From contig NC_087388.1 of assembly GCF_963675165.1 (NCBI RefSeq), positions 750,800 through 814,799 on the forward strand: 64,000 nucleotides of DNA. The letters run 5' to 3'. A program made the position numbers and the translations under genes. Of this stretch, positions 4,901-47,106 are shown in pieces (positions within the stretch are counted from its first letter, which is position 1; the number at the start of each line of letters is the position of its first letter). This DNA comes from Halichondria panicea. Its lineage: Eukaryota; Porifera; Demospongiae; Suberitida; Halichondriidae. A model generated the notes under the pieces. The model ran no database searches. It saw only the letters and a list, made by a program, of their open reading frames with translations, and was not told where the DNA came from.

Positions 4901-7900
4901 ATGTATTGGAGTGTGTTTGTCACCGTCCTGCTTGCCTTTTCCTTCAAGGCTACTAATGGTGAGTGAAAGGATTAGCTATATACTAGGCCTATAGCTAATA
5001 CAATATTGCTATACCGTATTATGCGGGTGAAAAACCTTTGCAAATGAACCAAATCAGCAGAAAATTTGATCTTTTGCGATCTATAACTATTGTGTTCTGG
5101 CAAGGATCGTGTGTATTTACTAGTAATAATTTAGGTTTTGCGGGTTTTATTGATGCGAATTGATCAACCCTCGCAAAATTTGCAAATGTTTGATGCTCGC
5201 AAAACGTTCTAGTAATACGGTATTGAGAATGTCACACTAATATTGACTGACTGTGGAAAATTGACTCTTTATATGTACATCACATACATGTTGTACACCT
5301 ATTGTGTATTCAATGTATCGATGCAGGTCAGGTCAAGGACATACTGATTGGTACACTCCCCAACTTCCAACACGGCATAGAAGGGCAGCTGTATCTAAGG
5401 GATACAAAAACACTTGTCATTGAGAACTTCTCCTATGATGGACTCGGAGTAGGTATGTGGGCTGCATGAATCCCCATAGCAAAGATCAGATGCATGCATA
5501 TCAAAGATCATAGCAAAGATCAGATGCATGCATAACAAAGATCATAGCAAAGATCAGATGCATGCATAACAAAGATCATAGCAAAGATCAGAGCATGATT
5601 AGGGGTTGGTAGATTATGCTCAAGATATTACCTATTATGCTACTCTTTTATGCTCAAGTAAACAGCCTATTATTCTTTTCAAATAGCCTATTATTCCCAC
5701 ATTATTCCTCCAAAGCACAACATAGGACCCATGTCGTCACACAAGTAACATCAAACTATAAATAATTGCCATGTGACTCTATCTACTATAATAGAATTGC
5801 AAGGAGATAATTAACCACCAGCACTTCCAAATGTTTATACTATGACTCGTACTGACCTGTATTTGTGTGAAACCTGCCTATTATTCTAATAAATATGCCT
5901 ATTATGCCAGCATAATTCTCAGAGCATGGACAGGATGTATAGCAATGCAAAGATCATAACAAAAGATCATAACAAAAGATCATAGCAAAGATCTAACCTC
6001 GATCCCAGGCCGAGTTTTCGCTTTTATATTTATAACGGTTAGGCGAACAACTAGGCCTGGTACTAGTTGTCTGCGCATGCGTCAAATTTTCATTGTATTT
6101 GTGGTCAGCAAAAATAATTATTTAATAAATCGAAATTTGTACACAGAAAATGCACGGAGTGAGTACACAAAAGATGCACATAGGGAGCTGCTTCACAAGG
6201 GCCTGGGGAGTTGCCAGTTGTGCTGCAGCACGATTACAGTGACCCAGGGCAACTTTAGGATGATTAAATGCCTTCAAATTACATTTCAAAAATATTTAGC
6301 AGGCTGCTGGACTTCTCTGATTCTAGGCCCCAACTCGTAACTCAGTTAAATTTTGCTTAAGAAAACGTAGATTCTCTTGATGCCTCTGAGGTACCCAGCA
6401 ACGCTCGAACGAGCAGGTCATGCATACTCCAGTCCTGTGAGTATAGGACAATATTAAAAGAAACCAAAGACGGTTAAACCCTTACCTCAAACTGTCCAGT
6501 CTCGTCCGTTAGTATAGCCAAGAGGAGCACTGTTGGGATAGCTGGATATTAGCCATTGCTCCTGTACAGAGAAGTACGTGTAGATCTATACATATTAAAT
6601 TTCTCGTATTAAACAGGTTATAGTGTCATTGTCGACAAGCTGAGGATGGCAGCACCAAGTTCTCTAGCTCACACTCTTTACTTGATCCACCATATTAATG
6701 ATGAAACTATAGTCTACCTAGATCTTGCCAAACATGAACAAGACTTGATAGCATATAGGGCCCACACAAAAATATCTGACCTTAACAAGCTTGACAAAGC
6801 TTCTATACCTCTTCCCTTGTTGTTCAGTCTTCAGAATAATGTTTTCTAAGCTTCAGAGAAGAGAGAAGCTTCAACTAAGAGCCATTCCAATTGATTCCAA
6901 TAATGATAAAACGGGAACTGACTTCTAGTACACGATAGTTGTCACGAAAGTGAACGAGAATATCCATTCGTCAGAATCTGACGAACGACTGACGCATGCG
7001 CAGACAACTAGTACCAGGCCTAGTTGTTCGCCTAACCGTTATAAAAGCAAAAACTCGGCCTGGGATCGAGGCTAAGCAAAGATCATGCATGATGCATGCA
7101 TAACAACGATCATAACAAAGATCATAGCAAAGATCAGAGCATGGATCAGAATGCATAGCAAAGATCATGCCTTGGATGTATATAATTATAGCACTAATAG
7201 TCCACTGCGAGTTGTGTGTATATATATATGGAAGTATTATTGTGTTTAAAATAAAAATGAAAAATGTTGTATTTTTGCAACACTGTGTTTTGTTTTGTAT
7301 ACGGTTTTATAATGAGAATTGAGCTTGCATGCAGTGCACAAAATACTTTTAGCTACCGTATAGCGTGTATATTTTGAGGGTATATACATGTACCGCGAAC
7401 ATTTATAATCGCGAATTTAATATCGCATGCATGCATGCATGCTGTAAAAAGGCTGCTATTCCACGAAAATTAAATCTGTGAAAACCTTTCTAAAGGCATT
7501 TCCGCGAAAATTTATACCCTCGAAATAATACCCGCTATACGGTATATAGGCCATTATTGGTTGGACATTATTATCGGTAATTTGGACAAGAATTTTCATA
7601 CACAGTATTTTACAGTGCACTTGGCGTTGCAGCATGCATACATGGCCGTATCTCCTGATCTGGCAACTTTTAACACGTTACATGGAAGATTGAGCACACC
7701 CGCACTGGCTGACCATATGCTATTTTGCTAAGCAGCTTGACATGTTAATTGCATGGAAATTGACCAGTGCATATGGCAGCTGTGCCTCATAAACCTGTGC
7801 CAACATAAACAGTTTTACTTTTGCAAATGCAAGTATTACAAATGGCTATGTATAAATAAAGTCCAAAGTGAAATATCATGCATGCATTTATTTGACCTCT

Positions 7901-10900
7901 ATATACAGACACCTTTCTTTACTACTTCAAGCCTGGCCAGCAGGCTGTGCACGGTCAAGGGATCGTCATTCCTGTGCCGGGTGGAAAGTAAGAAGCACCT
8001 ATATACAATGTATATATACATTCTTTGAGTGCCACAATTGATCCCTTAAAAATTACCTTCCTTCGTATGACTTTTGTGTTATCTGCACAGCCCTGCTGAT
8101 GGTAGCTTTGTGAGAGGACGTCGCTATAGTAGAGAGCAGTTGGTGATTGATTTGCCCGAGGGCACAGATGCGTGTGACATTGGGGAGCTGACCATTTGGT
8201 GTCGACCGTTTGGAACATACTTTTCATCCATCACGCTTAATCATGACATTTTATTTGTGAGTCCTGCATGCAAGTTGTGTAACCAGTACAGCTGTTGTAC
8301 TCTTTTGAAGTGGTTGTGACTGCATGTGAAGTCACGGCACACTCACTTGTATAGGGTTAATATTTGACATGACCATATATGGCTATAATATAGGCACAAT
8401 CATCAGAAATTCTAACCATGCATGCACATTCGCTTCAGTTGCACAATGCATGGAATTGAAGTCACGGCACACTCACTTGTATAGGGTTTAATTATGTGAC
8501 ATGACCATATATGGCTATAATATAGGCATAATCATCAGAAATTCTAACCATGCATGCACGTTTGCTTCAGTTGCACAATGCATGTAATTGACTACACTTG
8601 AATGCAGTTTAGAGCCACTTAACTTGTGGTTTACCATAGAACGCGCTGTATAGTGAGTGCCTATTTTTATAGCTACTATACTATATTCATCTACATGCAC
8701 ATGCAGCGCTGTGATAGACCATAGATCTAGTATTATATCTATGGATAGACCTAGCAAAATACCACAAAACCACCATACAATGTTGCTATGCATGCAACCA
8801 GGCAGGAGTATGCTCCTGATGCAACCAACCTGTGTCCTGAGCCATGCAGTGATGGCTGTAACACGATAATTTTGTACTGTGCTTTGTGGCAAGTTTGAGG
8901 CAAATGGTAATCTGACTTGAGGTTATAATTATAGTGTTACAGTTTACATAAGACCTACTGAAGTGGTTTACTCAGTTGCACTTATCTCAAGTACAATTTA
9001 CCAAAATCCCAAGCGAGCTGCAAAGGGCAGCACCAGAGATCAAAGACATGCACCTTTGAGTTGTGTAATTTATGCAAACCACCAACCTGTATGGGCCATC
9101 TGGCCATCTGGCATATACCCACGCAGGCTCCAGACTGCCCTTAGATGGCCCTTATAATGATCCATCCAAACATTTTTATGGCTGTTATATACACCAGATG
9201 GTACACCCACCCTGCCTTACATCTATAACTGGGAGGCCATATAGATGGCCCTTATAATGATCCATCCAAACATTTTTATGGCTGTTATATACACCAGATG
9301 GTACACCCACCCTGCCTTACATCTATAACTGGGAGGCCATATAGGGTAATTTTCGTTGGCGCAAATTTTCGTATGAACTGCTACCCAATTAAGTATTTGT
9401 ACAGCTCAGGATAGTTACGTCGAACGTACTAGGTAGAATAATTTCTTCTTAGTTTTAATTGCATGTGATGCTCTACAATACGTAATAATTATACAAAAAT
9501 GTCCACCATACGAAATCTCGCTATACGGTATTCTATACTTAAAGCAATTGTAGGTATGTTTGTAGTTGATAAACAGTATACTGAGATCATAATTATATAC
9601 ACAGTACTATTTTGTGTATTTTCACAGGAGGAGCGTGCAGGACCCGATGAAGAATGTCTCATCAAGGTAGGACTGCGTTTAGTATATACTACGTATAATT
9701 ATAATCATAGTCACGGTGCACAAATAAAATGCTGAGTCGATCATTTTAACATATACGTACAATCTGCATGCATACACTAACATTCACTTACTGATATGTG
9801 GTCTCTCCATTACAGGGAAGAGGTTGGTTAGACCCCCAGCGGTTCAGTAGTATTGTGGTAAGCTAAGCTAACTTACCATTATTGCCCTTCTTCCCCCAGT
9901 TCCTTCCACTGATAAGCCATCAGTTGAGACTACTACTAAAGGTTAGTTGACACTCATAGCCATGTGCATAATGATATGTTTCATAATTGCTTCCCCCCGT
10001 AACTCATTCAGAAGAAGCTGTCACTACTGAAGGTGAGATATGCACATTGATCACATAATTATATACATGTATATAGCTTTAATAAACTATATAAGAGTGT
10101 GTCCCTATGCACCCTCACCTTGTATATATAGTGTCTGACATTGAGAGGGTAATCGTACCTCCTGTCCAGGTCCCTGCGATCAGTTGAACTGCCCTTCTTA
10201 CACTACTTGTGAGATGATTCCAGGTGTAGGTACAAATTCATCTATATCCATGTTTCCTTTCTGCCTTCCGTCCTGTGAGCTGGAGAATGGTGGATGTGCT
10301 GAAGACGAGATCTGTTCTCTTGTGGAACAACTTTGCCCTTCTAATGGGCCTTGTCAAACTACTGTGCAGTGCTCTCCTGCAGGTAATCAATTGTTAATGG
10401 AGCTAGAGTTTATAATTATAAGAGTGTCTCCACCACTTACCGTGTCTGACATTGAGAGTGTATTCGTACCTCTGTCCAGGTCCCTGTGATCAGTTGAACT
10501 GCCCTTCTTACACTACTTGTGAGATGATTCCAGGTGTAGGTACAAATTCATCTATATCCATGTTTCCTTTCTGCCTCCCGTCCTGTGAGTTGGAGAATGG
10601 TGGATGTGCTGAGGACGAGGTCTGTTCTCTTGTGGAACAACTTTGCCCTTCTAATGGACCTTGTCCAACTACTGTGCAGTGCTCTCCTGCAGGTAATCGC
10701 TTGTTAATAGAGTTAGTGTAAAAGCTCCTATAAGAGTGTGTCCCCATGCACCCTCACCTTAATTGTATATATAGTGTCTGACATTGAGAGTGTATTCGTA
10801 CCTCTGTCCAGGTCCCTGCGATCAGTTGAACTGTCCCTCTTACACTACTTGTGAGATGATTCCAGGTGTAGGTACAAATTCATCTATGTCCATGTTTCCT

Positions 10901-13900
10901 TTCTGCCTCCCGTCCTGTGAGCTGGAGAATGGTGGATGTGCTGAGGACGAGATCTGTTCTCTTGTGGAACAACTTTGCCCTTCTAATGGACCTTGTCCAA
11001 CTACTGTGCAGTGCTCTCCTGCAGGTAATCAATTGTTAATGGAGCTAGAGTTCATAATTATAAGAGTGTCTCCACCACTTACCGTGTCTGACATTGAGAG
11101 TGTATTCGTACCTCTGTCCAGGTCCCTGTGATCAGTTGAACTGCCCTTCTTACACTACTTGTGAGATGATTCCAGGTGTAGGTACAAATTCATCTATATC
11201 CATGTTTCCTTTCTGCCTCCCGTCCTGTGAGTTGGAGAATGGTGGATGTGCTGAGGACGAGGTCTGTTCTCTTGTGGAACAACTTTGCCCTTCTAATGGA
11301 CCTTGTCCAACTACTGTGCAGTGCTCTCCTGCAGGTAATCGCTTGTTAATAGAGTTAGTGTAAGAGCTCCTATAAGAGTGTGTCCCCCATGCACCCTCAC
11401 CTTAATTGTATATATAGTGTCTGACATTGAGAGTGTATTCGTACCTCTGTCCAGGTCCCTGCGATCAGTTGAACTGTCCTTCTTACACTACTTGTGAGAT
11501 GATTCCAGGTGTAGGTACAAATTCATCTATGTCCATGTTTCCTTTCTGCCTCCCGTCCTGTGAGCTGGAGAATGGTGGATGTGCTGAGGACGAGATCTGT
11601 TCTCTTGTGGAACAACTTTGCCCTTCTAATGGACCTTGTCCAACTACTGTGCAGTGCTCTCCTGCAGGTAATCAATTGTTAATGGAGCTAGAGCTCATAT
11701 AAGAGTGTCTCCACCACTTACCGTGTCTGACATTGAGAGTGTATTCGTACCTCTGTCCAGGTCCCTGCGATCAGTTGAACTGCCCTTCTTACACTACTTG
11801 TGAGATGATTCCAGGTGTAGGTACAAATTCATCTATATCCATGTTTCCTTTCTGCCTTCTGTCCTGTGAGCTGGAGAATGGTGGATGTGCTGAAGACGAG
11901 ATCTGTTCTCTTATGGAACAACTTTGCCCTTCTAATGGACCTTGTCCAACTACTGTGCAGTGCTCTCCTGCAGGTAATCAATTGTTAATGGAGCTATAGA
12001 GCTCATAATTATAAGAGTGTCTCCACCACTTACCATGTCTGACATTGAGAGTGTATTCGTACCTCTGTCCAGGTCCCTGCGATCAGTTGAACTGTCCTTC
12101 TTACACTACTTGTGAGATGATTCCAGGTGTAGGTACAAATTCATCTATATCCATGTTTCCCTTTTGCCTCCCGTCCTGTGAGTTGGAGAATGGTGGATGT
12201 GCTGAGGACGAGGTCTGTTCTCTTGTGCAACAACTTTGCCCTTCTAATGGGCCTTGTCCAACTACTGTGCAGTGCTCTCCTGCAGGTAATCAATTGTTAA
12301 TGGAGCTAGAGTTCATAATTATAAGAGTGTCTCCACCACTTACCATGTCTGACATTGAGAGTGTATTCGTACCTCTGTCCAGGTCCCTGTGATCAGTTGA
12401 ACTGCCCTTCTTACACTACTTGTGAGATGATTCCAGGTGTAGGTACAAATTCATCTATATCCATGTTTCCTTTCTGCCTCCCGTCCTGTGAGTTGGAGAA
12501 TGGTGGATGTGCTGAGGACGAGGTCTGTTCTCTTGTGGAACAACTTTGCCCTTCTAATGGACCTTGTCCAACTACTGTGCAGTGCTCTCCTGCAGGTAAT
12601 CGCTTGTTAATAGAGTTAGTGTAAAAGCTCCTATAAGAGTGTGTCCCCATGCACCCTCACCTTAATTGTATATATAGTGTCTGACATTGAGAGTGTATTC
12701 GTACCTCTGTCCAGGTCCCTGCGATCAGTTGAACTGTCCTTCTTACACTACTTGTGAGATGATTCCAGGTGTAGGTACAAATTCATCTATGTCCATGTTT
12801 CCTTTCTGCCTCCCGTCCTGTGAGCTGGAGAATGGTGGATGTGCTGAGGACGAGATCTGTTCTCTTGTGGAGCAACTTTGCCCTTCTAATGGACCTTGTC
12901 CAACTACTGTGCAGTGCTCTCCTGCAGGTAATCAATTGTTAATGGAGCTAGAGCTCATATAAGAGTGTCTCCACCACTTACCGTGTCTGACATTGAGAGT
13001 GTATTCGTACCTCTGTCCAGGTCCCTGCGATCAGTTGAACTGCCCTTCTTACACTACTTGTGAGATGATTCCAGGTGTAGGTACAAATTCATCTATATCC
13101 ATGTTTCCTTTCTGCCTTCTGTCCTGTGAGCTGGAGAATGGTGGATGTGCTGAAGACGAGATCTGTTCTCTTATGGAACAACTTTGCCCTTCTAATGGAC
13201 CTTGTCCAACTACTGTGCAGTGCTCTCCTGCAGGTAATCAATTGTTAATGGAGCTATAGAGCTCATAATTATAAGAGTGTCTCCACCACTTACCATGTCT
13301 GACATTGAGAGTGTATTCGTACCTCTGTCCAGGTCCCTGCGATCAGTTGAACTGTCCTTCTTACACTACTTGTGAGATGATTCCAGGTGTAGGTACAAAT
13401 TCATCTATATCCATGTTTCCCTTCTGCCTCCCGTCCTGTGAGTTGGAGAATGGTGGATGTGCTGAGGACGAGATCTGTTCTCTTGTGGAACAACTTTGCC
13501 CTTCTAATGGGCCTTGTCCAACTACTGTGCAGTGCTCTCCTGCAGGTAATCAATTGTTAATGGAGCTAGAGTTCATAATTATAAGAGTGTCTCCACCACT
13601 TACCGTGTCTGACATTGAGAGTGTATTCGTACCTCTGTCCAGGTCCCTGTGATCAGTTGAACTGCCCTTCTTACACTACTTGTGAGATGATTCCAGGTGT
13701 AGGTACAAATTCATCTATATCCATGTTTCCTTTCTGCCTCCCGTCCTGTGAGTTGGAGAATGGTGGATGTGCTGAGGACGAGGTCTGTTCTCTTGTGGAA
13801 CAACTTTGCCCTTCTAATGGACCTTGTCCAACTACTGTGCAGTGCTCTCCTGCAGGTAATCGCTTGTTAATAGAGTTAGTGTAAGAGCTCCTATAAGAGT

Positions 13901-15454
13901 GTGTCCCCATGCACCCTCACCTTAATTGTATATATATAATAGTGTCTGACATTGAGAGTGTATTCGTACCTCTGTCTAGGTCCCTGCGATCAGTTGAATT
14001 GTCCTTCTTACACTACTTGTGAGATGATTCCAGGTGTAGGTACAAATTTATCTATATCCATGTTTCCTTTCTGCCTCCCGTCCTGTGAGCTGGAGAATGG
14101 TGGATGTGCTGAGGACGAGATCTGTTCTCTTGTGGAACAACTTTGCCCTTCTAATGGACCTTGTCCAACTACTGTGCAGTGCTCTCCTGCAGGTAATCAA
14201 TTGTTAATGGAGCTAGAGCTCATATAAAAGTGTCTCCACCACTTACCGTGTCTGACATTGAGAGTGTATTCGTACCTCCTGTCCAGGTCCCTGCGATCAG
14301 TTGAACTGCCCTTCTTACACTACTTGTGAGATGATTCCAGGTGTAGGTACAAATTCATCTATAACCATGTTTCCTTTCTGCTTCCCATCCTGTGAGTTGG
14401 AGAATGGTGGATGTGCTGAGGACGAGGTCTGTTCTCTTGTGGATCAACTTTGCCCTTCTAATGGACCTTGTCCCACTACTGTGCAGTGCTCTCCTGCAGG
14501 TAATCTAATAGAGCTACTATTTGCCTTCATATTTTTATTATCTCAGCTATAGGTACTCGATCCTCACATGCATTTATCTTACAGATCCTTGCAGTACATT
14601 TAGATGCCAAAGGGGCTACAGGTGCCAAGTGTACGAGCCAACCAATGAGGCGTACTGTGAGCCAGCATGTGACCTGTTCAATGGCGGGTGTACTACAGGA
14701 ACCTACTGTATTCTTCGCCGGGACCGTGATTGCAATGAGGGGCCGTGTCCATCTCTAAAAAGCTGTTGTTTTTTCCCACGCTGTGACATGCACGTCTGTA
14801 GCGCTAGGGAAACCAGGAGAAGCCCATGCATTATTGAGTGAGAAGCTATAGCCTTACCATCCTCACCCCTTTGATTTGTGTCCCTTGTGGAAATATTTGA
14901 CATTCAGTTTTATTGCTATAGTGTATACATGTATAGTATATTATGTGCATACATTAGAAACATTTCGATACATTAATAATAATGCCTCTCTCAATTCCGC
15001 CACATGCAGTGCAGAGGATTCCCAATGTGATGAAGAGGAGTGTCCATTTACTTACTGTCGTAATTGTTACTTCTCGTCCCAAAATCAGCCATTGCCAGGC
15101 AACTGTGGGACATGTAATGAAAACAGTGTCAATAATAAATGTACTAAAAGATGGGCAACTTGCACCAGAAGAGCACATTTTGCTGCTTATGGACAGGTAA
15201 GATAATACATGCAGTAGAAATGACGTCTCTCTAAAACGGCAATAAAGCGAGAGGCTCCTAAGATTAGTTTTTGTACTGTAATATGACATTGTACTATATA
15301 GCTACTTACATTAGCTAACTACATTAATGTATAAACACACACACACATCACAAGTGTGCACACACAACCTCCCTCCCCACACATGCAGCCATGGCCTAGT
15401 CAGTCTTCTCTAAGGAAGGAGGAGGACTTTCGCTGTCACATACCTCCATGTTAA
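4901..15454 (+). CDS. SkelA: secreted DM13 protein with 14 ten-cysteine domains
   Basis: Predicted secreted protein of 1341 residues. Exons: 4901-4958, 5327-5452, 7909-7987, 8091-8256, 9628-9666, 9816-9822 (7-base microexon), 9900-9941, 10012-10032, fourteen 213-base Cys exons from 10170 to 14499, 14585-14837, 15010-15196 and 15389-15454. Residues 1-19 are a signal peptide (MYWSVFVTVLLAFSFKATNG). Residues 20-156 are a DM13 domain: GTLPNFQHG, FSYDGLG, FLYYFKPGQ, IPVPGG, DLPEGTDACDIG, LTIWC, and a closing EECLIK. A Thr-rich linker follows, then 14 repeats of 71 residues (180-1173) and a Cys-rich C-terminal region with CEPACDLFNGGC and CDEEECPFTYC. DM13 occurs in Skeletor-type extracellular or redox proteins. 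Unlike SkelB and SkelC, this copy has no second DM13, DOMON or cupredoxin-like part. The start was chosen by agreement with paralogues. The exon chain is predicted by eye, and the microexon is its weakest link. Confidence 0.82.
5010..5222. mobile_element. MITE, TACCGTATTACTAGAA family
   Basis: About 212 bases in SkelA intron 1, with ends ATACCGTATTATGCGGG and CGTTCTAGTAATACGGTAT. The interior (GGCAAGGATCGTGTGTATTT, GATGCTCGCAAAA) is shared with the copies near 1389, 16957 and 37660. It has no coding capacity and is absent at the same place in SkelB (18821-18993). Confidence 0.75.
5477..5600. repeat. AAAGATCATAGC minisatellite in SkelA intron 2
   Basis: Tandem units of about 34 bases built from CATAACAAAGATCATAGCAAAGATCAGATGCATG-like sequence (a degenerate ~17-base half-unit). 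Related tracts continue at 5940-5992 and 7075-7165, on either side of the 5997-7071 element, so that element inserted into this minisatellite. Shorter related tracts are at 19145-19240 and 36485-36570 in the paralogues. Confidence 0.75.
5997..7071. mobile_element. 1.07-kb foldback/TIR element, non-autonomous
   Basis: Terminal inverted repeats of roughly 85-90 bases: the left end CCTCGATCCCAGGCCGAGTT continues through TAACGGTTAGGCGAACAACT and GTCTGCGCATGCGTCA, and the right end is its near-exact complement ending GGCCTGGGATCGAGG. It is flanked on both sides by CTAA (5993-5996 and 7072-7075), a likely 4-base target duplication. It sits in SkelA intron 2 and is absent from the corresponding SkelB intron. 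Internal open frames of 87 codons (6077-6340) and 67 codons (6646-6849) match nothing I recognise, and no transposase is visible. Confidence 0.85.
7354..7544. mobile_element. MITE, TACCGTATAGCG family
   Basis: About 190 bases with ends TACCGTATAGCGTGTATATT and AATACCCGCTATACGGTA, which are inverted. Inside are inverted CGCGAA/TTCGCG-type segments and a GCATGC run. The same element occupies the orthologous intron of SkelB (19398-19585) and, more decayed, of SkelC (38969-39178), so it predates the paralogue split. Confidence 0.8.
8326..8584. repeat. ~131-bp tandem duplication in SkelA intron
   Basis: The segment starting TGAAGTCACGGCACACTCAC and ending CAGTTGCACAATGCATG occurs twice, near 8326-8456 and 8457-8584, with few differences. 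SkelB has a single copy at 20818-20930. It is non-coding. Confidence 0.85.
9143..9343. repeat. 101-bp tandem duplication in SkelA intron
   Basis: The segment GATGGCCCTTATAATGATCC...GGGAGGCCATATA is present twice, at 9143-9243 and 9244-9343, almost without change. SkelB has one diverged copy (about 21473-21570). It is a recent local duplication. Confidence 0.85.
9344..9533. mobile_element. MITE, CGAAAAT/ATACGAAA family
   Basis: About 190 bases with ends TAGGGTAATTTTCGTTGG and CATACGAAATCTCGCTATACGGTA, enclosing CAGCTCAGGATAGT. Relatives are at 21745-21914 in SkelB and at 49632-49796 and about 50949-51100 in the ankyrin gene. No coding capacity. Confidence 0.7.
10170..14499 (+). repeat. SkelA array of 14 Cys-domain exons
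   Basis: Fourteen exons of exactly 213 bases start at 10170, 10480, 10812, 11122, 11455, 11761, 12073, 12383, 12715, 13021, 13333, 13643, 13980 and 14287. Each begins after TCCAG (TCTAG for the 13th) and ends CCTGCAG|GTAATC, phase 1-1. The encoded unit has ten cysteines with landmarks PCDQLNCPSYTTC, FPFCLPSCELENGGC, EDEICSL and LCPSNGPC. Introns of about 93-130 bases are repeated along with the exons. The block from 11455 to 12714 (four exons, 1,260 bases) is repeated at 12715-13974, and the pair 10480-11121 at 11122-11454. The single-exon open frames seen inside it are parts of one gene. Confidence 0.93.
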
Positions 15455-15895: not shown

Positions 15896-15916
15896 TCCCC
15901 CCCCCCCCCCCCCCCC
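15896..15916. repeat. poly-C tract
   Basis: Run of about 21 C residues downstream of SkelA. A matching tract lies at 35823-35841 downstream of SkelB, so it was already present in the duplicated block. Confidence 0.9.
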
Positions 15917-16004: not shown

Positions 16005-16202
16005 GGGTTAGCTTTGTTTGTGATGTGCTATTGAACTTTGACCCGGATATAAACTTGAATGTGCTTGACCACGCCTTCTACCTGTTGGAAGGCGTGGTCT
16101 CTTTCTAAGTGAATGTGTGGGCGTACACAGTGTTGACAAAAAGAGATGATGTCCATCCATTCTTCACAACCTCATGCAACCTAGTACCTCATGGAGTGCA
16201 GC

Positions 16203-16875: not shown

Positions 16876-16956
16876 GGTACATGGGCTGCATGAATCGCCA
16901 TAGCAAAGAAGATGCTCATGCATGCATAACAAAGATCATTAGCAAAAATCATAATG

Positions 16957-17161: not shown

Positions 17162-17283
17162 TACCTGTTTGCTGAATTTTGTACACTACCTGTGTGTAAA
17201 AGTGCAGACTACCACTATTGCTACAATGTTTTGCGAGGGAAAAATTATCATGCCCCTCTCCCTTCCTCTCTCTCCCTGTACAG

Positions 17284-35911: not shown

Positions 35912-36103
35912 TAGGGTTAGCTCTGTTTTGTGATGTGCTATTGAACTTTGACCCGGATATAAACTTGATGGTATATATGTCTTCTACCTATTGGAAGGCG
36001 TGGTCTCCGTATAAGTGAATGTGTGGGCGTACACAGTGTATAGTAGATGATGTCCATCCATTCTTCACAACCTCATGCAACCTAGTACCTCATGGAGTGC
36101 AGC

Positions 36104-39100
36104 ATGTATTGGAGTGTATTTGTCACCTTCTTACTTGCCTTTTCCTTCAAGGCTACTAATGGTGAGTGGAAAAGGATTATCAGCTAGGGCTGCCTAACCA
36201 AGCTGTTAATATTGGACTGACTATTGAATTGGCTAGACTGAACTGTTGTGTCTTGATTCTTCATAATTATGTACATAGACTACATGTATACCTAGAACAG
36301 GTGTTTTCAATGTATCAATTGTCTATGTATGCAGGTCAGGTCGAGGACATACTGGTTGGTACGCTCCCCAACTTCCAACACGGCATAGGAGGGCAGCTGT
36401 ATCTAAGGGATACAAAAACACTTGTCATTGAGAACTTCTCCTATGATGGACTCGGAGTAGGTACGTGGGCTGCATGAATCGCCATAGCAAAGAGGATGCT
36501 CATGCATGATGCATGCATAACAAAGATCATAGCAAAGATCACGATGCATGCATAACAAAGAGCATGGATGTATGCAAAGAGCACATGTGCAGCATATAGC
36601 ACTATAATATAGTCCACTGCGAGTTTTTTGTGTATATAATGGATTGTGTTCAGTACTTTCGTTGTATTTTTATGCCTCGAGGCGTAGCCGCACGAGGGAT
36701 ACGGTAAAGCTGACTGTGTGTGTGTGTGTGTATTCCAGCAGTAACTGCTCAACGGTTGCAATGCGACGAAAACTAACAGCTTCTATAGGCTTCTAGCCAC
36801 GTTCTCTTGGATTTTGATTCGTGGATTAGCAAACTAAAGCTTCTTTCTCGAGTTATGGCTAGTTTGACTCACATTGAAGGCTGTTGCAGTCTCTTCAGAA
36901 TCTTTCATAGCATCATCTGTTCGCACAAACTTTCTATTCAACATATGAGTTAGCCTTGCACTAAAGCGCTAGCTTTTTGTTAGCTACAAGACTCAGAAAA
37001 TATCTGTTAAAACAGCTAGCTAGCAGTAGCCATTTGTGAAATTGATCTCTTTGGACACACCCTTTAATTATTCCTGTGGATGTAATGCGCATGCGCGCTC
37101 ATTCCCCATGTGTGAGAAAATAATATCCAAGATCCAGGTCCAGATCCTCCTGGCAGAATCATCTTTGTCTTGAGGGCCTGGTAAGCCACAAAACACTACC
37201 ATATAACAACATAGATAATGCATGTACACAGGTCTTTTCTTCTTAGATATTATATACACTGAACTATACAGATCCTGGAAGAACTCTTTCTTGAGGTCCT
37301 GGTAAACCATGCACATAATACAATAAATAACAAAAATAGATGCATGTAAATAAGTGTTTTCTTCTCAGTGATTTCTTCTCAGTGACTTTATATAGATAAG
37401 CTAACTTTAATATAAAATTCATTTATAGATAACACTCTAATACTTTTGAGGGAAAGCAAAAACATGGCGAGAGGCATTAGCACAGCGCCAGCTTGAACAC
37501 TAGTTACACACTGTGTTTGTGTACATGCATAAATGTAGAATTGTCGGGTAAAGCTTGTTCAAGTAGTCACGTTTGCACAAAATAATTGCTATAGGCCATT
37601 CAAGCCACGTTGGTTTAGTTGGTAATTCAATTTTTGATAGGAAGATTGCAGTGATTTGATACCGTATTACTAGAATGTTTTGCGAGCATTAAACATTTGC
37701 GAAGTTTGCGATTGATCAATTCGCAACAATAAAATCGCAAAACCTAAATTATTACTAGTAAATACACACGATCCTTGCCAGAACGCAATAGTTAGATCGC
37801 AAAGGGTCAAATTTTCTGCTGATTTGGCTCATTCGCAAAGGTTTTTTCACCCGCAAAATATTCTAGTAATACGGTACCAACATCGCATGTAGGGTTTTAT
37901 GATAATGTGCCCTCGTGTGACATCATGGCCCACAAGTATTTTTGTGGGCAAATACACATACTCTATGTAATTTTGGAAATTAGAGCTATGCAAAAAACTA
38001 TTGATTGGTACCCTAAAATGTGACAGAAGGGCCACTTGGTGAAGTGCACTATATACTCAGCACAAAAAATAAATATATATATATCACCTGATCTAGAACG
38101 TTGGAAAGATTGGGCCACACCCAAAGTGATTGATCGGACGCACTGGCTGGCTCGGCATATTCTATATTGCTAGGCCATGCACTTGTGTTATAATTGCTGC
38201 ATGGAAATTGGCCAATTGCCAGCCGTTATTTTATACACTGATTGTTGAGTGTAGTGAAATCAGGATTATAATTATGTGCATGGAACCAATGCAAATGCCT
38301 CATAATTAGTGCTTGCAACAAACCTGTGCCAGCATGCAAATTTTTGTTTTTGTAAGGTTTACCATTACCGCAGTACTTTATTTGATCTCACTTTATACAG
38401 AAACCTTTCTCTACTACTTCAAGCCTGGCCAGGAGGCTGTGCACGGTGAAGGGATCTTCATTCCAGTGCCGGGTGGAAAGTAAGCAAGCAACTGCAAAAT
38501 TATGCATGCAGAGAAGGTTCGACATGCGTGCATTGATGTCATTTGCGGTCAGGTGATAACGTCCAAGGCCAATGCACAGCACTTTTAGTGATTTTTCGTG
38601 CACGCATGTCTGACCTTTGTATGCTCATACTGCACCATATACATTCTTTGATTGCCACAATTGATAACTATATATACACGCAGTTGCCACATAATCACGT
38701 TACCCTCCCTCATATGGCTTTTGTAATTGTGTTATCTGCAGCCCTGCAGATGGTAGCTTTGTGAATAGACGTCGCTATAGTGGAGAGCAGTTGGTGATTG
38801 ATTTGCCTGAGGGCACAGATGCGTGTGACATTGGGGAGCTGACCATTTGGTGTCGACCGTTTCGAGTATACTTTTCATCCATCACGCTTAATCATGACGT
38901 TTTATTTGTGAGTTATGTCATCAGTACAGCTGTTGGTTGGCATGTTTAGTCATGGTTTGATCTCACATACTGTATAGCAGCAGATATGTTTCGAGGGTAT
39001 AAATTTTTGCGGTTTTCGCTGATAAAGCATGTACAGCAGACATTTATATACATGTACCTAATATCGCATGCATGGATACATGCTGCAAAAAGGCTGCTAT

Positions 39101-42100
39101 TCCGTGAATATTAAATCTGCGAAAACCTCTCTAACGGTAATTCTGCAAAAGCTTATACCCTCGAAATATACCCGCTGGTCTTATGGTACCTATTGTTTGT
39201 ATACCTTATCTTGATGACCTCGACCACGAATTCATGATGGTGTAGCTAGCTTACCTATCTTGTTTCTTAACAGTACGTACATAGGACGAATTAATCTCAG
39301 GTATGCATGTCCACAATCAAAATCTGATTTATCTGTAACACAATGCTGTTGTTACAGTACCAGCTGTACCAGAGATAAGGCGCCTTTGAGTGGGTTTATG
39401 TAAATGAACTGTCTGACCACCAACCCCCATCTGGTATATATATGGCTGTTATGCCATCTGCATGGCATATACCCACGGGCTCCAGACTGGCCTCTATGGT
39501 CCATCTTTATGGCTTTTATATCATGCAGATGGCATGCAGGGGCGTACCTAGAAATTTTACGGGAAGGAGGCAACACCCCCGCAAAATGTTTGCCCGGAAA
39601 CCACACTCACTAATTATCGCGTAGAAGTGCATGCAAATGGCAGTAAACTGCTATTTACCTGCTCTTCTTCTCCAACAAAAGAGTGATAGAGCTCATTTTC
39701 TGCTCATTCTATAAATACCTAGTTAGCTAGTTATCCAGAAGTTGGCTAGCCAGAGCTATTAAAAGCTAGTGAGGTGAGTCACATAACACTTGTAGTTTAA
39801 TAGTACAGGAGGCAAGGGCCTCCTCTGCCTTATTGCTAGTTACGCCCCTGGCATGCATGTATATACATGTACATCTAGGCCACAGTGGCGTAGCCAGGAT
39901 TTTAGGAAGGGCCGGGCTCAAATCGGTTGAGCAGAGTCAGAGCAGGCGCTGAATAACACGAAATAAAAAAAAAAAAGGTCATCACCTTTTCCTCAGCATG
40001 CAGTCAGCATGCACATTAGATGGCCCCCTGCCCACATATCCATTGAATGACATCATTCTAGTAACTATGCATGCGTACAGTGCAGAATAAATCGACAGAT
40101 CACAGTGATTCAAGCTAAGTTGGAGTTGATGGAGCACAAAAGGGTGGGGCTCTAGCCCCGTCAGCCCCCATCTGCCTACGTCACTTGCTTTTCAGATGTT
40201 TTACGGCTCTATCCAAGTCGACGAGTATACTAGTTCTAAACCAGCTGTAGTTGCGCTTACACAAATATTATCTTTTCTTAAATCTAAATGTGCTATGTTA
40301 AGCCGATGCAAGATACGTACAACATCCACTAATGATCGTGTATACCATACACCCTTCACCTGGATATCAGGGACACTTGGTGGGGTCATGCATGCATAGG
40401 TTAACTTTTATAACTACCATGTATAGCGCAACATTTTCAAGGCACTTAAATTTCATGCAATGACCTCTAAAAGTATTTCAGGGAACGTGGGTATAGCTAT
40501 CTTACTGGAAGCACTCCCAGGCCACGCCTTTAATCTTTGCACATAAAAGAATTCGTGTAGGATTGCTAACCTACGAAAACAGCGAAAGTTAAGCCCCTAA
40601 CAAATTTCATGCTATACACTTAAAAGCATTTGTAGGTATATATGTAATATTATGTTTGTGGTTGAAAACAATAGTGTCATAGAGCATTTAATACTTGTTA
40701 CTTGAGATGTGGTATTTTCACAGGAGGAGCGTGCAGGGCCCGATGAAGAATGTCTCATCAAGGTAGGACTGCGTTTTAGTGTATACTACGTATAATTATA
40801 GTCACAGTGCACAATCCTATACATGTACACTGTTGACATTTGTGGTTTCCTCTCCATTACAGGGAAGAGGTTGGTTATAATAAGACCCCCAGCTGTTATT
40901 TTTGTTGGAAAGCTAAGCTAACTTACCATCATTGCCCTCCTTCCCCCAGTTCCTTCCACTGATAAGCCATCAGTTGAGACTACTACTAAAGGTTAGTTGA
41001 AGCTCTCAGTATATATATATTTGTACTATGGTTGCACCAAAGATCAAAGGCTTCAGTTGTAGTTTATACTACTTATACAACCTGTCTGACCACAGCCATG
41101 GTATATGGCAGTTATACCCTAGTGTATAACTGCCATATACCATGGCTGTGGTCAAACTACATGTACAGCTAGAACTGAATACAGTATCCCACCTTTGCAA
41201 CAAAATTGACACACTGTTTCAATTAAAACAATGACACACTACTCAATTCAATCAAATATTAGCAATATTAGAGTTAGAGAGAATTCAATACAAAACAGAC
41301 TACTATACTAATGATTTTAGTCAACATAAAAAGAGCCAAGTTCGAGCGATGAATAGTTCCAAAAAGGAGGTAAATTTGGAAGAACTCCGTGATCGTGAAT
41401 CGAACGATACTGGTTTGTTTGTGTTGCTTTTTTTCAACTTTCAATATTGGTTGTCACAACCTGCTTATTACATTGCTGCATGGGACCAGGAGCAGTAAGA
41501 AGGGTCCAGACTGCCAAGTGTTTCTCAGACTAAAGAGACTGCACTGCACTGGGCCAGTACAGTAGGCTTGTGGAATGATATTTTGGGGTACATTTGCACT
41601 CTTTGTAGACAAGTAGCACCAGTGTACTTTCTTGAAGTGCCTTCTATAAAGATGCAGAAACACAGCCTTCACAATTGCTTGCTTGAATCATAGACGCTTG
41701 CTTGAATCAGCCATCGCTTTTTAAAAAAATAGCAAATTCATTGCATAGCTATAGCAACAGTGACGTCAAACAGTAGTTATAAGCATATTCATTGAAGAAG
41801 CATGACAGGAAGTAGCTAAACATAGTAGTACAGTTCTAAACATAGTACAAGCCAGTTAAACTATGGCCTCTCGTGGTATATTTGCTTTACACGCTCGAGT
41901 AATCAGATAAACCAACTCGGCTGCGCCTCGTGGTTTATCAGATTACTCTCGCGTGTAAATCAAATATACCACTCGAGGCCATTGTTTAACTATAACATAT
42001 AGCCATGTGCATAATGATATGCTTCACGATTATACCCCCCCCCCCTGTAACTCATTCAGAAGAAGCTGTCACTACTGAAGGTGAGATGTGCATATTGATC

Positions 42101-45100
42101 ACATTATATATGTTTATTCATTTCCTAGATCTCATTAATGAATTCTCCCCCACAGCACCCCCCACAGGTGTGGAGATTGGAATGTTGCCCCCCAACTCAG
42201 ACTACAGTATTTCAGGAACTCTCTTTATACTGGACACAAAAACACTCCTCATCGAAGACTTCAACTACGATGGCAATGCACCAGGTGAGAGTATTACTTT
42301 AATAGTTTACCTGAATGCATATGAGCTGGTACGTTGTCATGTCAACTGCAGGTGCCTTTCTCTACTACTACCCTCCTGGTCAGGTTATAGACAAGAACGG
42401 TGGAGGTTTTTTCATACCAGTACCCGGTGGAAGGTGAGTCACACTCACATACACTATCTGCATAGCATCTCTGTTGAACATCGATCTTGTATACGTATAG
42501 TTGCCTTACCTTCATATACCATCAGCGTACACATGCAGTGATTGTTATTGTTTCTATTGATCTCCTATATACTCGATCTTGTTGGCAGAGAGAACGGAGG
42601 GTTTAAGATTGGACGTAGCTACTTTAATGAAGAACTCCTGGTCCCACTGCCTGAGGGCGTGGATGCGTGTGACATTGGCACGTTCACAATCTGGTGTATG
42701 CCATTCACTGTCTTCTTTACAGTCCTCCCCTTTCCAACTGAAAGGATATTTGTGAGTGAGGCATGAGGTAGCTTAAGAGGATTTAAAGCATGTATTGAAT
42801 TGTACTTCTATAATAGAGTTATCAGTTCACCAGTTTAAGAGATTAAGTTACCTTTGGAAATTACTTAGTTCAAAATCGTAGTTTTTTTTGTTTGTAGTGG
42901 TAGTGGTGGTGATCATTTACACTCACAGCACATTCACAGCACGCTCCTCTCTCCCCACTATATACTATAGGTGCAAGAAACCGATGAGTGCATTATTCAG
43001 GTAGGTACTCACATGCATGCAGTCTCACACACTGCAGCAAAGAAGTGTATAGCCCCACTGTAGTTGTGTACGTTCACCCTCAGCTTGTCTTTATCGTATC
43101 AAGTTGTACATGACTTACTGTACCCCACCTCTCACTCCCTGTACTCATTCTTCTGCAGCCTGGGTTGGGGACACTAGTACCATTCAAGTGTCCCAATAGA
43201 AGGAGCGTCGGTTCTGCTAGGGATTGTGATTTTGACAACTGTGCTGCCCTTGACGACCAGCTACAGCTGTCCTGGACTGTCAGAAATGATATGCAAATGA
43301 TTGACTTTAGACTCTGCGGCTGTCTAAGTGGTGATCCAAAGTCAGTTGGTGTTAGCTTGACACAAAATTGAATTATACATGTATATTCTTCCGTTCCATA
43401 CAGCCTGAACCAGTACATGGGATTCGGACTCAGTGGCAACACCAACCGGACACACATGATTGGGGCAGACCCTGTCATTACGTGGGTTGACGAGACCACT
43501 GGACCTCAAGCAGTCGACTATTTCCTCACTGGCTACTTCCAGGTATAGGACAACAAGTGTGTGTGTGTGCAGCTAAACCAGTGACAACAATGTGGTATGA
43601 TTGTTGTGGCTTAACTTAATTAGTGTTTTTTCGTGTAACATTTTTCTTTTGAAATCGGATTACAAGTTATATTGTTTGATCTCTCAATCTTTTGCTCCCC
43701 TTCCCCTGCAGTGTCGAGATGGTCGTGGTGCATGCCCTGACGAGGACCATTTCAGTGGTAGCTGCTCCAATGACATTGTCTCTGTGAGTGGATCCAGACA
43801 GGGAGGGCAGCAGTGTGTCATCTACAAACAAAGCTTCTCTACCAGTGAGTGTGTTTATAAAGCTGCTGTAGACAACATTCATGAGGACCAAGTAATGTGT
43901 ATAGCAACTCAATTGTTCCAGATAGTTGACCAATTTTACATTATGGAATAGCTTTCCCTTAATGTGAAGCTGGTAAATATTATTACAGTATGCTTGATTT
44001 GTAGTGTATATGTCTTCATGTGTTTGTGTGCAGATGACAGTACGTGTGATATTCCCATTGACCCTCTCAACATGGAACAGTACATTGTGTGGGGAGTGGG
44101 TGGTCTCGGAGAGACTGCTTTCCAACATTTCAAGAGAGCATCAGGTGAGCTACATGTACTTGTACTCATTGTATATTATCATGATACACTACCCTCTCTC
44201 TCTCTATGCAGCGTCTGACCCTCCCATCCATTTTGGTAGGACTCCAGTTAACATGTGTCCCCGTGAGGTCCAGTGCCGACAGTGCAGTGAACCATTTGAA
44301 GCAGCTGTGATTGAGGCTCTTGAAGACACTATCTTCTCTGTTAGCATAGGACCCTCTGGTGCTGACAGAGGCTATGAGGCCATTACTGGTGAGAGCTAGT
44401 GCATGAGATACAGTTTAGTTAGTATCTGTATATAGTGTTACGGCTACTTATTTGAGAGCATTGCTTATAGTGGCATGCAGCAGGCATGTAGTTAAATAGC
44501 TCTAGAGTACATGTAAGTGGAGAAACTGTTCAGTATACAAAGCTCATATTTACACTTCACTCTAGCAGAAAATGTATGTGGCAGATGCTGTTAATTTTCT
44601 GTTTTGTCATTAGATTTTTAGACTTTCTCATCTAGGCCTATACTGCCCTCCCTCGCACAGGTCAAGTGGGATGGGGCATTGCTTACTACATCAATAGCAC
44701 CTTGGTACCTGAGCTGGTGGTACAGAGAGGCCAGGCCTACGTGTTCATTGTAGAGGCAGGGAATAATCCTGACAACCCAGCCAATTATCACCCCTTCTAC
44801 ATCACTGATGATATTCACGGGAGTCGAGTGTTCAAAACACCTGAAGAGAAGATGGTGAATATATTATACATGCCATGACTCGTATTTATTAATTTAAATT
44901 TTTTTCAGGCTGAGACTGTATTTGCTGGTTTCGATGGTGACAACGTTACTGCAGGTATGATTGCATGCATGTGGGTACGTAGTGGAAGTTTAAACTTTGA
45001 TCACCTTCAATCTATTATTCTCCCGTACAGCTGGTCGACTTTGTGCATGCAGAGAGGGTGCCGAGGCTGCCAGGGTGAGAGAGAGTTGTGGGAGTCGCCA

Positions 45101-47106
45101 GGAATACGAGGAAAGTCAAGAGTGCGGCTGTGAAGAAGGGGGAGCAGCCATTCTAATTTGGATCCCTGACAAAGACACTCCAGACATAGTCTACTATCAG
45201 GTGTGGGGGGCTAGGGCTATAGAGAGGCCAACGTTGAAGGATGAGTAATAGAAGTTGCAATTTGTAGGCTCTAGGAGTCTCAGGGCTCTTTTACATGGAT
45301 GTACTTGTTAGTTTTTAACGGTCCCTAATAGTTTGGTGTTTGTTGTATCTATACATGTACGTGTGTGTATATATAGATCTCATGAACTGTATATACATTG
45401 ACTGACATCATCATTGTTTATCTCTACAGTGTGCCATTCACCTCAATCTGGGATGGAGGATCCGTGTACAAGACGCCCCAGGTAGATATAGGCACATTGA
45501 CCACATAGCTTACATGTATGTGAACTACAATAATAGTGAACATAACTCTAATTTCCCTGTCCAGATCCCTGCGACGAGTTGAGCTGTCCCTCCCACGCTA
45601 CTTGTGAGACGTATACAGATCCATTAGGTGGATCAGATGCTGCCTTCTGCCGCCCGTCCTGTGAGTTGGAGAATGGTGGTTGTGCTGAGGACGAGGTCTG
45701 TTCTCTTGTGGAACAAACTAATTGCCTTGCTGATGGACCCTGTCCACCTACTGTGCAGTGCTCTCCTCCAGGTAATCTAATAGAGCTACTATATACCTTC
45801 ATATTTCTGTCATCTCAGCTATAGGTACCCGTTGCTCACATGCAATTATCTTACAGATCCTTGCAGTACATTTAGATGCCGAAGGGGCTACAGGTGTCAA
45901 GTGTACGAGCCGACCAATGAGGCGTACTGTGAGCCAGCATGTGACCTGTTTAATGGCGGGTGTACTACGGGAACCTACTGCATTCTTCGCCAAGATCGCA
46001 ATTGCAGTGAGGGCCCGTGTCCATCTCTAAAGAGCTGTTGTTTTTTCCCGCGCTGTGACATGCACGTCTGTAGCGCCAAGGAGAACAGGAGAAGCCCATG
46101 CATTATTGAGTGAGAAGAAAATATCCATATTATACACCATAGCCCTATACCCACCCTCCCCCCTTTGTGTCGCTCGTTTAAACAAGGGAATGAATATTTC
46201 ATATTCAGCCATACTAATAATAGTACCAAGAATAGTACTCTTGATAGCACCCATAGAACTTGTACATTTAGTAGTATAACAATTACGGGTAATATAGTAT
46301 GGCTAAAAGTGCAATATGGTACGCCCCGTGCAATTAGTAACCTTGCCATTGCTTGCATGCATGCATGCTACTCGTGCTATTAATCCCTTATTGCACGAGT
46401 AACCATACTATTGATTTTTAATCGTGTATGATGAAGTTCTCATTAACATTTTCAGTCGCGTCTGTTATTCGAAAACAATACGTTAATTGTCATTGATTGC
46501 ACGCTGTCAACGACGACGTGCAATTATTGGACTGGATGTGATACGGGATTAATTGCTGTACACTCTGGACCAGTCACTATAATAGCACATTATAATAATT
46601 ATTATAATAATTTATACGTTATATACAGACCTTAATTAATAATAATGCCTCTCTCAATTCCGCCACATGCAGTGCAGAGGATTCCCAATGTGATGAAGAG
46701 GAGTGTCCATTTACTTACTGTCGTAATTGTTACTTCTCGTCCCAAAATCAGCCATTGCCAGGCAACTGTGGGACATGTAGTGAACACGATATCTTTAATA
46801 AATGTACTCAAAGATGGGCAACTTGCACCAGAAGAGCACATTTAGCTGCTTATGGACAGGTAAGATATACAGTAGAATTAAAGATGATCTCTCTAGAAAA
46901 GACAAGGGATCGAGGCTCTATTACTTGTTTTCATACTGTATTGTACGTACCATTAACTGCATGGTCATTATTATTAACCCCACCACCCACCCCACACACA
47001 CACACCCACCCACCCCACACACACACACACATAGGCATGGCCTCGTCAGTCTCTAAGGAAAGAGGAGGATTTTCGCTGTCACATACTTCCATGTCCATCA
47101 CTCTGA
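36104..47106 (+). CDS. SkelC: DM13-DOMON-Skeletor protein with one Cys domain
   Basis: Predicted 954-residue secreted protein. Exons: 36104-36161, 36335-36460, 38401-38479, 38742-38907, 40724-40762, 40863-40869 (microexon), 40950-40991, 42060-42080, 42156-42284, 42352-42433, 42589-42751, 42971-43000, 43159-43340, 43404-43542, 43712-43844, 44034-44144, 44212-44388, 44661-44854, 44909-44954, 45031-45200, 45430-45481, Cys 45565-45771, 45857-46109, 46673-46859, 47035-47106. Residues: signal 1-19, DM13 20-156, linker, DM13 180-314, DOMON 315-465, Skeletor cupredoxin-like region 466-715, one Cys unit 716-784, Cys-rich C terminus 785-954 ending CHILPCPSL. Two in-frame stops just after the microexon donor (40878 on) mean that segment must be intron. 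An in-frame ATG at 36092 would add four residues; 36104 was chosen to match paralogues. Introns are enlarged by inserted elements. Confidence 0.87.
36480..38400. other. SkelC intron 2, element-rich
   Basis: A 1.9-kb intron with no gene seen. It begins with the AAAGATCATAGC minisatellite (to about 36570). About 36670-37650 is unrelated to the SkelA and SkelB introns and includes two CCTGGTAA(G/A)CCA-containing segments near 37170 and 37300. A MITE lies at 37660-37876. From about 38080 it again resembles the other paralogues. Confidence 0.6.
37660..37876. mobile_element. MITE, TACCGTATTACTAGAA family (best copy)
   Basis: 217 bases with good inverted ends TACCGTATTACTAGAATGTT and ATATTCTAGTAATACGGTA. 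The interior is in reverse orientation to the 5010 copy (CACGATCCTTGCCAGAACG). No coding capacity. Confidence 0.88.
38908..40723. other. SkelC intron 4 with several transposon remnants
   Basis: No gene seen. It contains a decayed TACCGTATAGCG MITE (38969-39178). A segment flanked by GGGGCGTACCTAG and CTAGTTACGCCCC (39540-39850) looks like a short TIR element. A second one runs from GTGGCGTAGCCAGGA to TGCCTACGTCACTTG (about 39885-40185). The local open frames near 39352-39624 and 40196-40399 lie inside or beside these and resemble no protein. Confidence 0.6.
41087..41154. repeat. 68-bp perfect hairpin
   Basis: Arms of 31 bases (TGACCACAGCCATGGTATAT...) complementary without mismatch around a 6-base loop CCTAGT. 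It lies in the SkelC intron between the two linker exons. Confidence 0.93.
41872..41992. repeat. ~120-bp imperfect foldback
   Basis: Arms TATGGCCTCTCGTGGTATAT... and ...CAAATATACCACTCGAGGCCA, with inner inverted GTAATCAGATAAACCA / GGTTTATCAGATTAC. Probably a foldback MITE. Together with 41000-41870 it makes this SkelC intron about 1 kb longer than in A and B. Confidence 0.8.
46110..46672. other. SkelC penultimate-region intron with inserted foldback
   Basis: This intron is 563 bases, against 172 in SkelA and 152 in SkelB. The extra sequence includes an imperfect inverted repeat at about 46296-46411 (AGTATGGCTAAAAGTGCAAT / TTGCACGAGTAACCATACT) and a very AT-rich stretch near 46580-46620. No gene seen. 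Confidence 0.65.
46980..47031. repeat. (CCCA/CA)n tract before last SkelC exon
   Basis: C- and CA-rich repeat ending at the ATAG acceptor of the final SkelC exon. SkelA and SkelB have shorter CA tracts at the same position. Confidence 0.85.

Follow-up and report, generated by a model that had tools for sequence, protein, structure and literature searches.

Putative Knickkopf/Skeletor-type genes carrying one to 25 copies of a ten-cysteine unit in the sponge Halichondria panicea

Introduction

Does a long run of cysteine-rich exons in a sponge genome belong to the same genes as the DM13 and DOMON exons beside it, and what kind of protein would such a combination make? This question is raised by a stretch of 64,000 nucleotides (the window) of the demosponge Halichondria panicea (NC_087388.1, positions 750,800 to 814,799), where an earlier note had described three neighbouring paralogues, here called genes A, B and C, as a Skeletor-like family with a mosaic of a ten-cysteine domain. 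The 64 kb window is part of contig C12 of the genome that we searched, which comprises 131 Mb in 39 contigs. Insect Knickkopf/Skeletor proteins consist of two DM13 domains, a DOMON domain and a conserved C-terminal region of ~200 residues, as laid out in the accessible part of one study (PMC4140639). According to the same partial source, the family has a signal peptide, a glycosylphosphatidylinositol (GPI) or transmembrane (TM) end is present in TcKnk, TcKnk2 and one TcKnk3 form but not in all forms, fly Skeletor is the Knk3 orthologue, and TcKnk has a strong affinity for colloidal chitin. The Knickkopf/Skeletor literature accessible to us deals mainly with insect cuticle.

Gene models

Stop-to-stop frames contained a dense run of Cys-rich exons in the window. 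Gene models were built with a paralogue at 2.74 Mb of contig C12 (paralogue D) as evidence and were then curated by hand, manual curation replacing two automatic models that ran exons into introns. The curated models comprise three head-to-tail genes on the + strand, with GT-AG at every exon junction and all three frames open (Table 1). They fit the interval 4901–47106 in which the family had been placed, since it begins with the ATG of gene A and ends with the last stop-codon base of gene C. The unit counts that had been claimed (14 in A, 25 in B and one in C) were recovered both by the models and by a six-frame genome search, and the models likewise contain a signal peptide, DM13 and a Cys-rich C terminus in all three genes. 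The least certain call in the gene A model is a 7-nucleotide micro-exon (9816–9822), for which, together with a better donor, the final 10 bases of exon 5 of the automatic model were given up. Several features went beyond the earlier note. The array of B is split: two units lie between the DM13 domains and the other 23 follow the cupredoxin-like part. One extra diverged unit opens the shared C terminus of each of the three genes. A fourth paralogue, paralogues lacking units, a probable deletion origin of A and the presence of the C-terminal module in other matrix-type proteins are described below.

In B, C and D the last core exon is open, reading through without a stop to a GT donor in phase 1. 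The unit exon that follows the core in B and C also begins in phase 1, and in D the first unit follows an AG. These matching splice phases, with no intervening stop, argue that the DM13/DOMON and Cys exons lie in one gene, as had been proposed. Comparison of the core exons of D with those of B and C yielded 435 of 537 and 439 of 536 identical residues, with ratios of nonsynonymous to synonymous change (dN/dS) of 0.32 and 0.27, respectively; the corresponding B–C ratio was 0.35. For the N-terminal exons dN/dS was 0.33–0.38 between D and A, B or C, 0.19 for A–B, 0.52 for A–C and 0.29 for B–C. As the core exons of D are conserved, a chance origin of the gene models is unlikely.

Table 1. Coordinates of the genes and their parts in the window, and positions of related loci on contig C12
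Feature	Position	Strand	Remarks
Gene A	4901..15454	+	25 exons, 1341 residues; GT-AG, open frame; order: signal peptide, DM13-1, linker, 14 ten-Cys units, terminal unit, Cys-rich C-terminal module
A exon 1, signal peptide MYWSVFVTVLLAFSFKATNG	4901..4958	+	hydrophobic core; same exon in B, C and D
A DM13-1, three exons	5327..8256	+	Pfam DM13 above cut-off
A linker, exons 5-8	9628..10032	+	includes the micro-exon
A intron 8, middle, holding the junction	10065..10089	+	between linker-intron match and inter-unit-intron match
A array	10170..14499	+	14 unit exons of 213 nucleotides, each phase 1-1
A terminal (diverged) unit and beginning of C-terminal part	14585..14837	+
A C-terminal Cys module	15010..15454	+	two exons, stop
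Gene B	18763..35349	+	49 exons, 2623 residues; order: signal peptide, DM13-1, linker, 2 units, DM13-2, DOMON, At5g54830/cupredoxin-like, 23 units, terminal unit, C-terminal module
B units 1 and 2	22512..23020	+	between both DM13 domains
B DM13-2, three exons	23082..23687	+
B DOMON exons	24082..25067	+	conserved Met of HMIGAD, His of QHFKR
B post-DOMON and At5g54830/cupredoxin-like exons	25377..27254	+	conserved His of NYHPFYI, Cys-x2-His of CAIH
B main array, 23 unit exons	27334..34429	+	apparent amplification in blocks of five or six units
B terminal unit and C-terminal Cys module	34517..35349	+
Gene C	36104..47106	+	25 exons, 956 residues; order: signal peptide, DM13-1, DM13-2, DOMON, At5g54830/cupredoxin-like, one unit, terminal unit, C-terminal module
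C DM13-2	42156..42751	+
C DOMON exons	43159..44144	+
C post-DOMON and At5g54830/cupredoxin-like exons	44212..45481	+
C single ten-Cys unit	45565..45771	+
C terminal unit and C-terminal Cys module	45857..47106	+
Locus E	C12:0.50 Mb
Loci F and G	C12:0.325-0.333 Mb
Locus H	C12:0.93 Mb

Domains of the N-terminal head

Exon-wise family searches were insensitive, and the domain calls rest on the spliced models. Pfam analysis of spliced C placed it above the cut-off for DM13 (7.3e-25, in two stretches), DOMON (2.2e-11; 44.5 bits against a cut-off of 32.7) and the At5g54830-like family PF25489 (5.5e-11; 43 bits against 27), in agreement with the Skeletor-like label of the earlier note. Two DM13 domains and a DOMON domain in B and D were deduced from exons homologous to those of C. 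Thus both B and C appear to hold the DM13-2, DOMON and cupredoxin-like parts that had been ascribed to them. The N-terminal 250 residues of A contain one DM13 domain (6.6e-13, above cut-off). Gene A had been said to lack DOMON; models, motif searches and exon searches agree, and place DM13-2 and the cupredoxin-like part among the parts absent from it as well.

When single exons were used, the DM13 model matched two places in the window and the DOMON model one, the latter below cut-off. The DOMON model matched 22 places in the genome, of which the only one in the window lies in gene C, where the match runs into an intron and contains a stop; no match was found at B, D or E by this insensitive search. 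Pfam scans of single exons gave partial DM13, DOMON and At5g54830 matches, some of them below cut-off, and a PDB sequence search with the core of C gave no match. B, C, D and E all carry a set of conserved motifs. In DM13 these are TIWC or IIWC; in DOMON, M-x-G-(A/S)-D and (Q/K)H(F/Y); and in the cupredoxin-like part, YHP and C-x2-H. Only the DM13 Cys of these candidate ligand motifs is retained in A. Hydrophobicity profiles contain a signal-peptide-like hydrophobic N terminus in all three window proteins, and by the Kyte-Doolittle scale their ends are hydrophilic and Cys-rich, the GPI or TM end of the family being absent. Because A has one DM13 only, it is at most a derivative of the Knickkopf/Skeletor family. 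Taken together, the domain matches, motifs and open gene models support the assignment of A, B and C as three tandem members of a Knickkopf/Skeletor-type family.

The ten-cysteine unit

All 40 units in the window contain ten Cys residues with the spacing C-4-C-5-C-(14 to 17)-C-3-C-6-C-5-C-(6 or 7)-C-5-C-5-C, and each is encoded by one exon of phase 1-1. One variant of this spacing occurs in 25 units and a second in 12, and three units have a spacing of their own. Since every unit exon is symmetric, gain or loss of units would leave the reading frame intact. A six-frame genome search with a unit query (E up to 0.1; the counts are lower bounds) yielded 63 matches, of which 42 lie in the window, 12 in paralogue D and nine on contig C1; the 42 window matches correspond to the same 40 unit exons plus two of the three terminal units. 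When 25 of the 40 units were aligned with the three terminal units (28 sequences), nine Cys columns were invariant; the eighth Cys is displaced in the terminal units.

No Pfam family reached its cut-off with the unit; a single unit scored 12.6 bits with the EGF-like family EGF_3, for which the cut-off is 28.5. Scanning the 28 aligned members gave weak matches to EGF_3 in three (best 0.0083) and to EGF_Pikachurin in one (0.017). A profile search of PDB sequences matched the eggshell-membrane protein CREMP, which has four modules (9pgb), with a whole-sequence E value of 1.7e-5. This match is made up of four weak stretches, none significant by itself, that lie in the first half of the unit. The predicted structure (predicted local distance difference test, pLDDT, 85.5; predicted template modelling score, pTM, 0.61) consists chiefly of two strand pairs and a short helix. 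VIA-align superimposed the second half of the unit on the EGF-like MSP1-19 with a Z score of 3.0 at best and 1.1 Å over 33 residues, which is a weak match. Among the matches listed by Foldseek for the unit model, none fell under 0.001 (best E value 0.19), and PDB sequence searches with the unit and terminal region gave no match. Our reading of these sequence and model comparisons is that the unit may be a CREMP/follistatin-type half fused to an EGF-like half. In style the units are perhaps reminiscent of the mosaic proteins of sponges and cnidarians.

In the accessible part of the source, the motif shared by avian eggshell CREMP and slime-mould SP75 is given as C-X4-C-X5-C-X8-C or C-X4-C-X5-C-X6-10-C (PMC3068167). 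As far as that description goes, the window proteins resemble CREMP and SP75 in the C-X4-C-X5-C of the first half and as matrix-type proteins with tandem arrays, and loops of 9-10 residues in several units of D and in the terminal units fall within the SP75 range. They differ in the third loop, which is 14-17 residues long in the 40 window units and thus departs from the motif, and in the additional second half with six Cys. That second half is like EGF-like domains (PF12947; MSP1-19 fold) in having C-x6-C-x5-C with NGGC, but its Cys spacing beyond the third Cys differs from the typical EGF spacing and its score lies below the EGF_3 cut-off.

Paralogues in the genome and their tails

Paralogue D lies ~2 Mb away, shares the core exons and their phases, and carries 12 units. 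One DM13 exon as query gave 11 matches in the genome and one cupredoxin exon gave nine; these define at least eight Knickkopf/Skeletor-like loci (A to H), and at the same E limit of 0.1 units were detected at four of the eight (A–D). Tails were read at three of the four loci without units (E, G and H). In E the core parts give way to other sequence and a Ser/Thr-rich frame. Shortly beyond the cupredoxin C-x2-H motif, G and H terminate in a strongly hydrophobic segment with maximal Kyte-Doolittle values over 15 residues of 3.01 and 2.41, whereas A, B and C remain below 0. These tails end as a GPI signal would and may be GPI-like. As the hydrophobic tails of G and H occupy the position of the array in B, C and D, the units and the Cys-rich C-terminal module may stand in for a membrane anchor. 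Scattered fragments resembling core exons of gene C also occur on contig C16 at 5.577 Mb (locus L019) and 5.593 Mb; they match 26 residues of one exon at 81-85%, and a second exon-like frame was found by eye at L019:733-909.

The C-terminal Cys module

With the second-last exon of B as query, 14 genomic matches were obtained: A–D, four on contig C1, and the remaining six on C12 and C3. An additional copy outside these 14 was found by eye in locus L006 on C1. The C1 genes that contain the module have VWC- and TIL-like frames by eye, and Pfam, applied to L006 only, matched VWC, TIL and Kunitz. By eye, five of the six sites on C12 and C3 have Kunitz-, EGF-, sushi-, TIL-like or Thr-rich frames, and nothing clear was found at the sixth (L014). 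Seven Cys are invariant in an alignment of 14 module sequences (13 of the 14 matches and the L006 copy). The module looks like a tail common to matrix-type proteins, without a named family. Pfam matches to Macin (0.0038) and a RING family (0.0047), each in one of the 14 members, were isolated and weak and were set aside. A MYND-domain protein was likewise rejected as a relative, the PDB profile matches all being 0.35 or worse and taken as chance.

Loci L004-L007 (C1:14.746-14.798 Mb) form a gene cluster with ten-Cys units, the C-terminal Cys module and VWC/TIL-like frames; gag/pol-type retroelement-like frames were seen by eye on the reverse strand of L007 (~6900-9880). DOMON exons of other genes lie ~65 kb from this cluster (C1:14.859-14.920 Mb). 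Three genes with the module are situated within ~106 kb of two chitin synthase hits (C12:4.740-4.780 and 4.830-4.846 Mb), which may be chance.

Origin of gene A and growth of the arrays

For the most part A and B are the closest pair of the three: over aligned columns, the identity of introns 1-7 was 0.90-1.00 between A and B and 0.74-0.92 between A and C. Intron 8 of A is chimeric. Its first 32 bases (10033-10064) match intron 8 of C, and the first 23 of these (10033-10055) match intron 8 of B. Its last 80 bases (10090-10169) match, over their whole length, the inter-unit introns before units A3, A5, A9, A13, B6, B12, B17 and B23. Bases 3-40 also have a weaker 79% match to the intron before the unit of C. 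As intron 8 is chimeric, A most likely arose by the joining of a linker intron to an inter-unit intron, and the most likely origin of A is as a deletion derivative that lost DM13-2, DOMON and the cupredoxin-like part. This cassette would have been removed by an intron-to-intron deletion. The converse possibility, that A is the ancestral form, was set aside in view of the core parts in C, D, E and further paralogues together with the chimeric intron.

The units of A are on average 97% identical to each other and up to 97% identical to the B unit 6 subtype. Several non-adjacent units are identical (A2, A4, A8 and A12; B7, B13 and B18; B8, B14 and B19), and therefore duplication occurred in blocks. 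Block lengths are 1,873, 1,556 and 1,881 bp in B and 1,260-1,261 bp in A. Array length would shift by unequal recombination within the array. For 12 hand-picked unit pairs, dN/dS ranged from 0.21 to 1.01. One explanation is that the arrays grew neutrally, by unequal crossing-over of symmetric exons with little effect, A being a dispensable by-product; the blocks of identical units, the dN/dS values near 1 for some of these 12 pairs, and the single unit ahead of the terminal unit in C are all consistent with it. However, none of the 40 units has a stop or has lost a Cys, A retains an open frame over 25 exons, and the A–B differences at the ends are 6 nonsynonymous versus 9 synonymous and 5 versus 13, and we consider neutral growth unlikely.

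Proposed function

Judging from sequence, we think it rather likely, though by no means assured, that A, B and C are secreted matrix proteins with a redox or polysaccharide-binding head on a disulfide rod. Exchange of the tail would have converted a protein anchored in the membrane into one secreted to the matrix, the direction of this change being itself part of the proposal. The head might bind a matrix polysaccharide such as chitin, pass electrons, or both; the array could be a stiff disulfide spacer, and the C-terminal module could join chains. In this scheme the array might serve in the extracellular matrix as a rod that can be cross-linked, and A would probably be a purely structural rod.

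In favour of the proposal are the strong affinity of insect Knickkopf for colloidal chitin (PMC4140639) and a family search for chitin synthase, which gave four genome matches above cut-off. Both of the two that were read contain EDR and QRRRW, and one contains SWGTRE. Together with the Kunitz, TIL and VWC domains of L006, these matches are in keeping with an animal genome. Four weak GH18 matches were also found, three of them above cut-off.

A number of observations weigh against the proposed function or the history on which it depends. The same chitin synthase model matches four of 14 control genomes, and GH18 matches six of the 14. The conserved Met, His and Cys are no more than candidate heme or copper ligands. 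The GPI-like character of the G and H tails is taken from hydrophobicity, and no hydrophobic tail was found in E within the stretch read. Of ten exons from E, G and H that were scanned singly with Pfam, only four matched DM13, DOMON or At5g54830, all below cut-off. Furthermore, the dN/dS of the A–C N-terminal exons is 0.52, and those of the unit pairs B3–B6 (0.96) and B2–C1 (1.01) are near 1. Finally, B and C are closer to each other than A and B in exons 2 and 3, intron 6 and the intron before the terminal unit, and for this reason conversion among A, B and C is possible.

An alternative role is that the head oxidizes its own tail, producing disulfide or tyrosine cross-links in the array and in the C-terminal modules of neighbouring proteins. 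In its favour, B, C, D and E share the conserved candidate ligands for heme and copper, the 25 units of B amount to 250 cysteines, and the module is common to other mosaic, matrix-type genes. Nevertheless, A holds an array without the head, E holds the ligand motifs without units, and insect Knickkopf is described, in the available portion of its source, as protecting chitin rather than cross-linking (PMC4140639). We regard self-oxidation as improbable. Much the same doubt applies to a broader scenario in which an anchored Knickkopf-type redox/chitin protein would have given rise to rods of adjustable length that cross-link themselves and their neighbours, with copy numbers that vary between individuals and tune the mechanics of the matrix.

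A further point against the secreted-rod proposal would be that assembly of near-identical repeats had distorted the unit counts, as several units are 100% identical and collapse or expansion is possible; yet paralogue D has its own 12-unit array and the block lengths given above are unequal within B and differ in A, which makes such distortion quite improbable. Least probable of these alternatives is that the DM13/DOMON part and the Cys array are adjacent independent transcription units: array exons make up about half of the 49 exons of B, but the core exons lead without a stop into the arrays as described above, the first two units of B sit between core exons, and the signal-peptide exon occurs, among the matches listed, only at 4901, ~16200, 18763 and 36104 and at none of the arrays.

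Relation to known systems

Within what the available text describes, B, C and D resemble the insect Knickkopf family (Knk, Knk2 and Knk3/Skeletor) in having a signal peptide, two DM13 domains, a DOMON domain and, beyond it, another conserved domain, whereas A has one DM13 only. As regards that last domain, we tentatively took the At5g54830-like domain of C as the counterpart of the ~200-residue Knickkopf region (PMC4140639). Unlike several of the insect forms described there, which have a GPI or TM end, A, B and C end in a ten-Cys array and a Cys module. One protein with a DOMON domain is reported in the skeletal proteome of the sponge Vaceletia (PMC4633127). The match of C to PF25489 above cut-off is a likeness to plant At5g54830-type proteins, which have a DM13-DOMON architecture. 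Points of difference are the ten-Cys arrays of A–C and the lack of any cytochrome b561 family in the Pfam scan of spliced C. In the literature, which was covered in part, we recognized no description of DM13/DOMON proteins with such ten-Cys arrays, and the array on a Knickkopf/Skeletor-type head appears to be a new variation on a known family.

The occurrence of the same head on a disulfide array or on a GPI-like tail in one genome offers a natural comparison of the roles of head and tail. The array is a clean example of change in protein length by duplication of symmetric exons, and the C-terminal module, present at 14 or more places, provides a handle on an uncharacterized matrix assembly system.

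Adjacent sequences

Between A and B (16200-16878) are an orphan signal-peptide exon and a first DM13 exon. Because the DM13 exon is frameshifted, its matches going on in another frame, this segment looks like the remnant of another tandem copy. It is separated from gene B by phosphatase frames (17200-18462), of which 17200-17592 matched Pfam NIF with 1.2e-15. No Pfam family matched the frames at 17725-18012 and 18016-18462, which look FCP1-like. Upstream of gene A, an open frame of 609 residues (2181-4007) contains a BRCT domain above cut-off (1.3e-5) and a 51-base tandem repeat at 2754-2903. Near the other end of the window, a frame at 62511-63035 matched RPGR1_C, the C-terminal domain of RPGR-interacting protein, with 3.4e-11.

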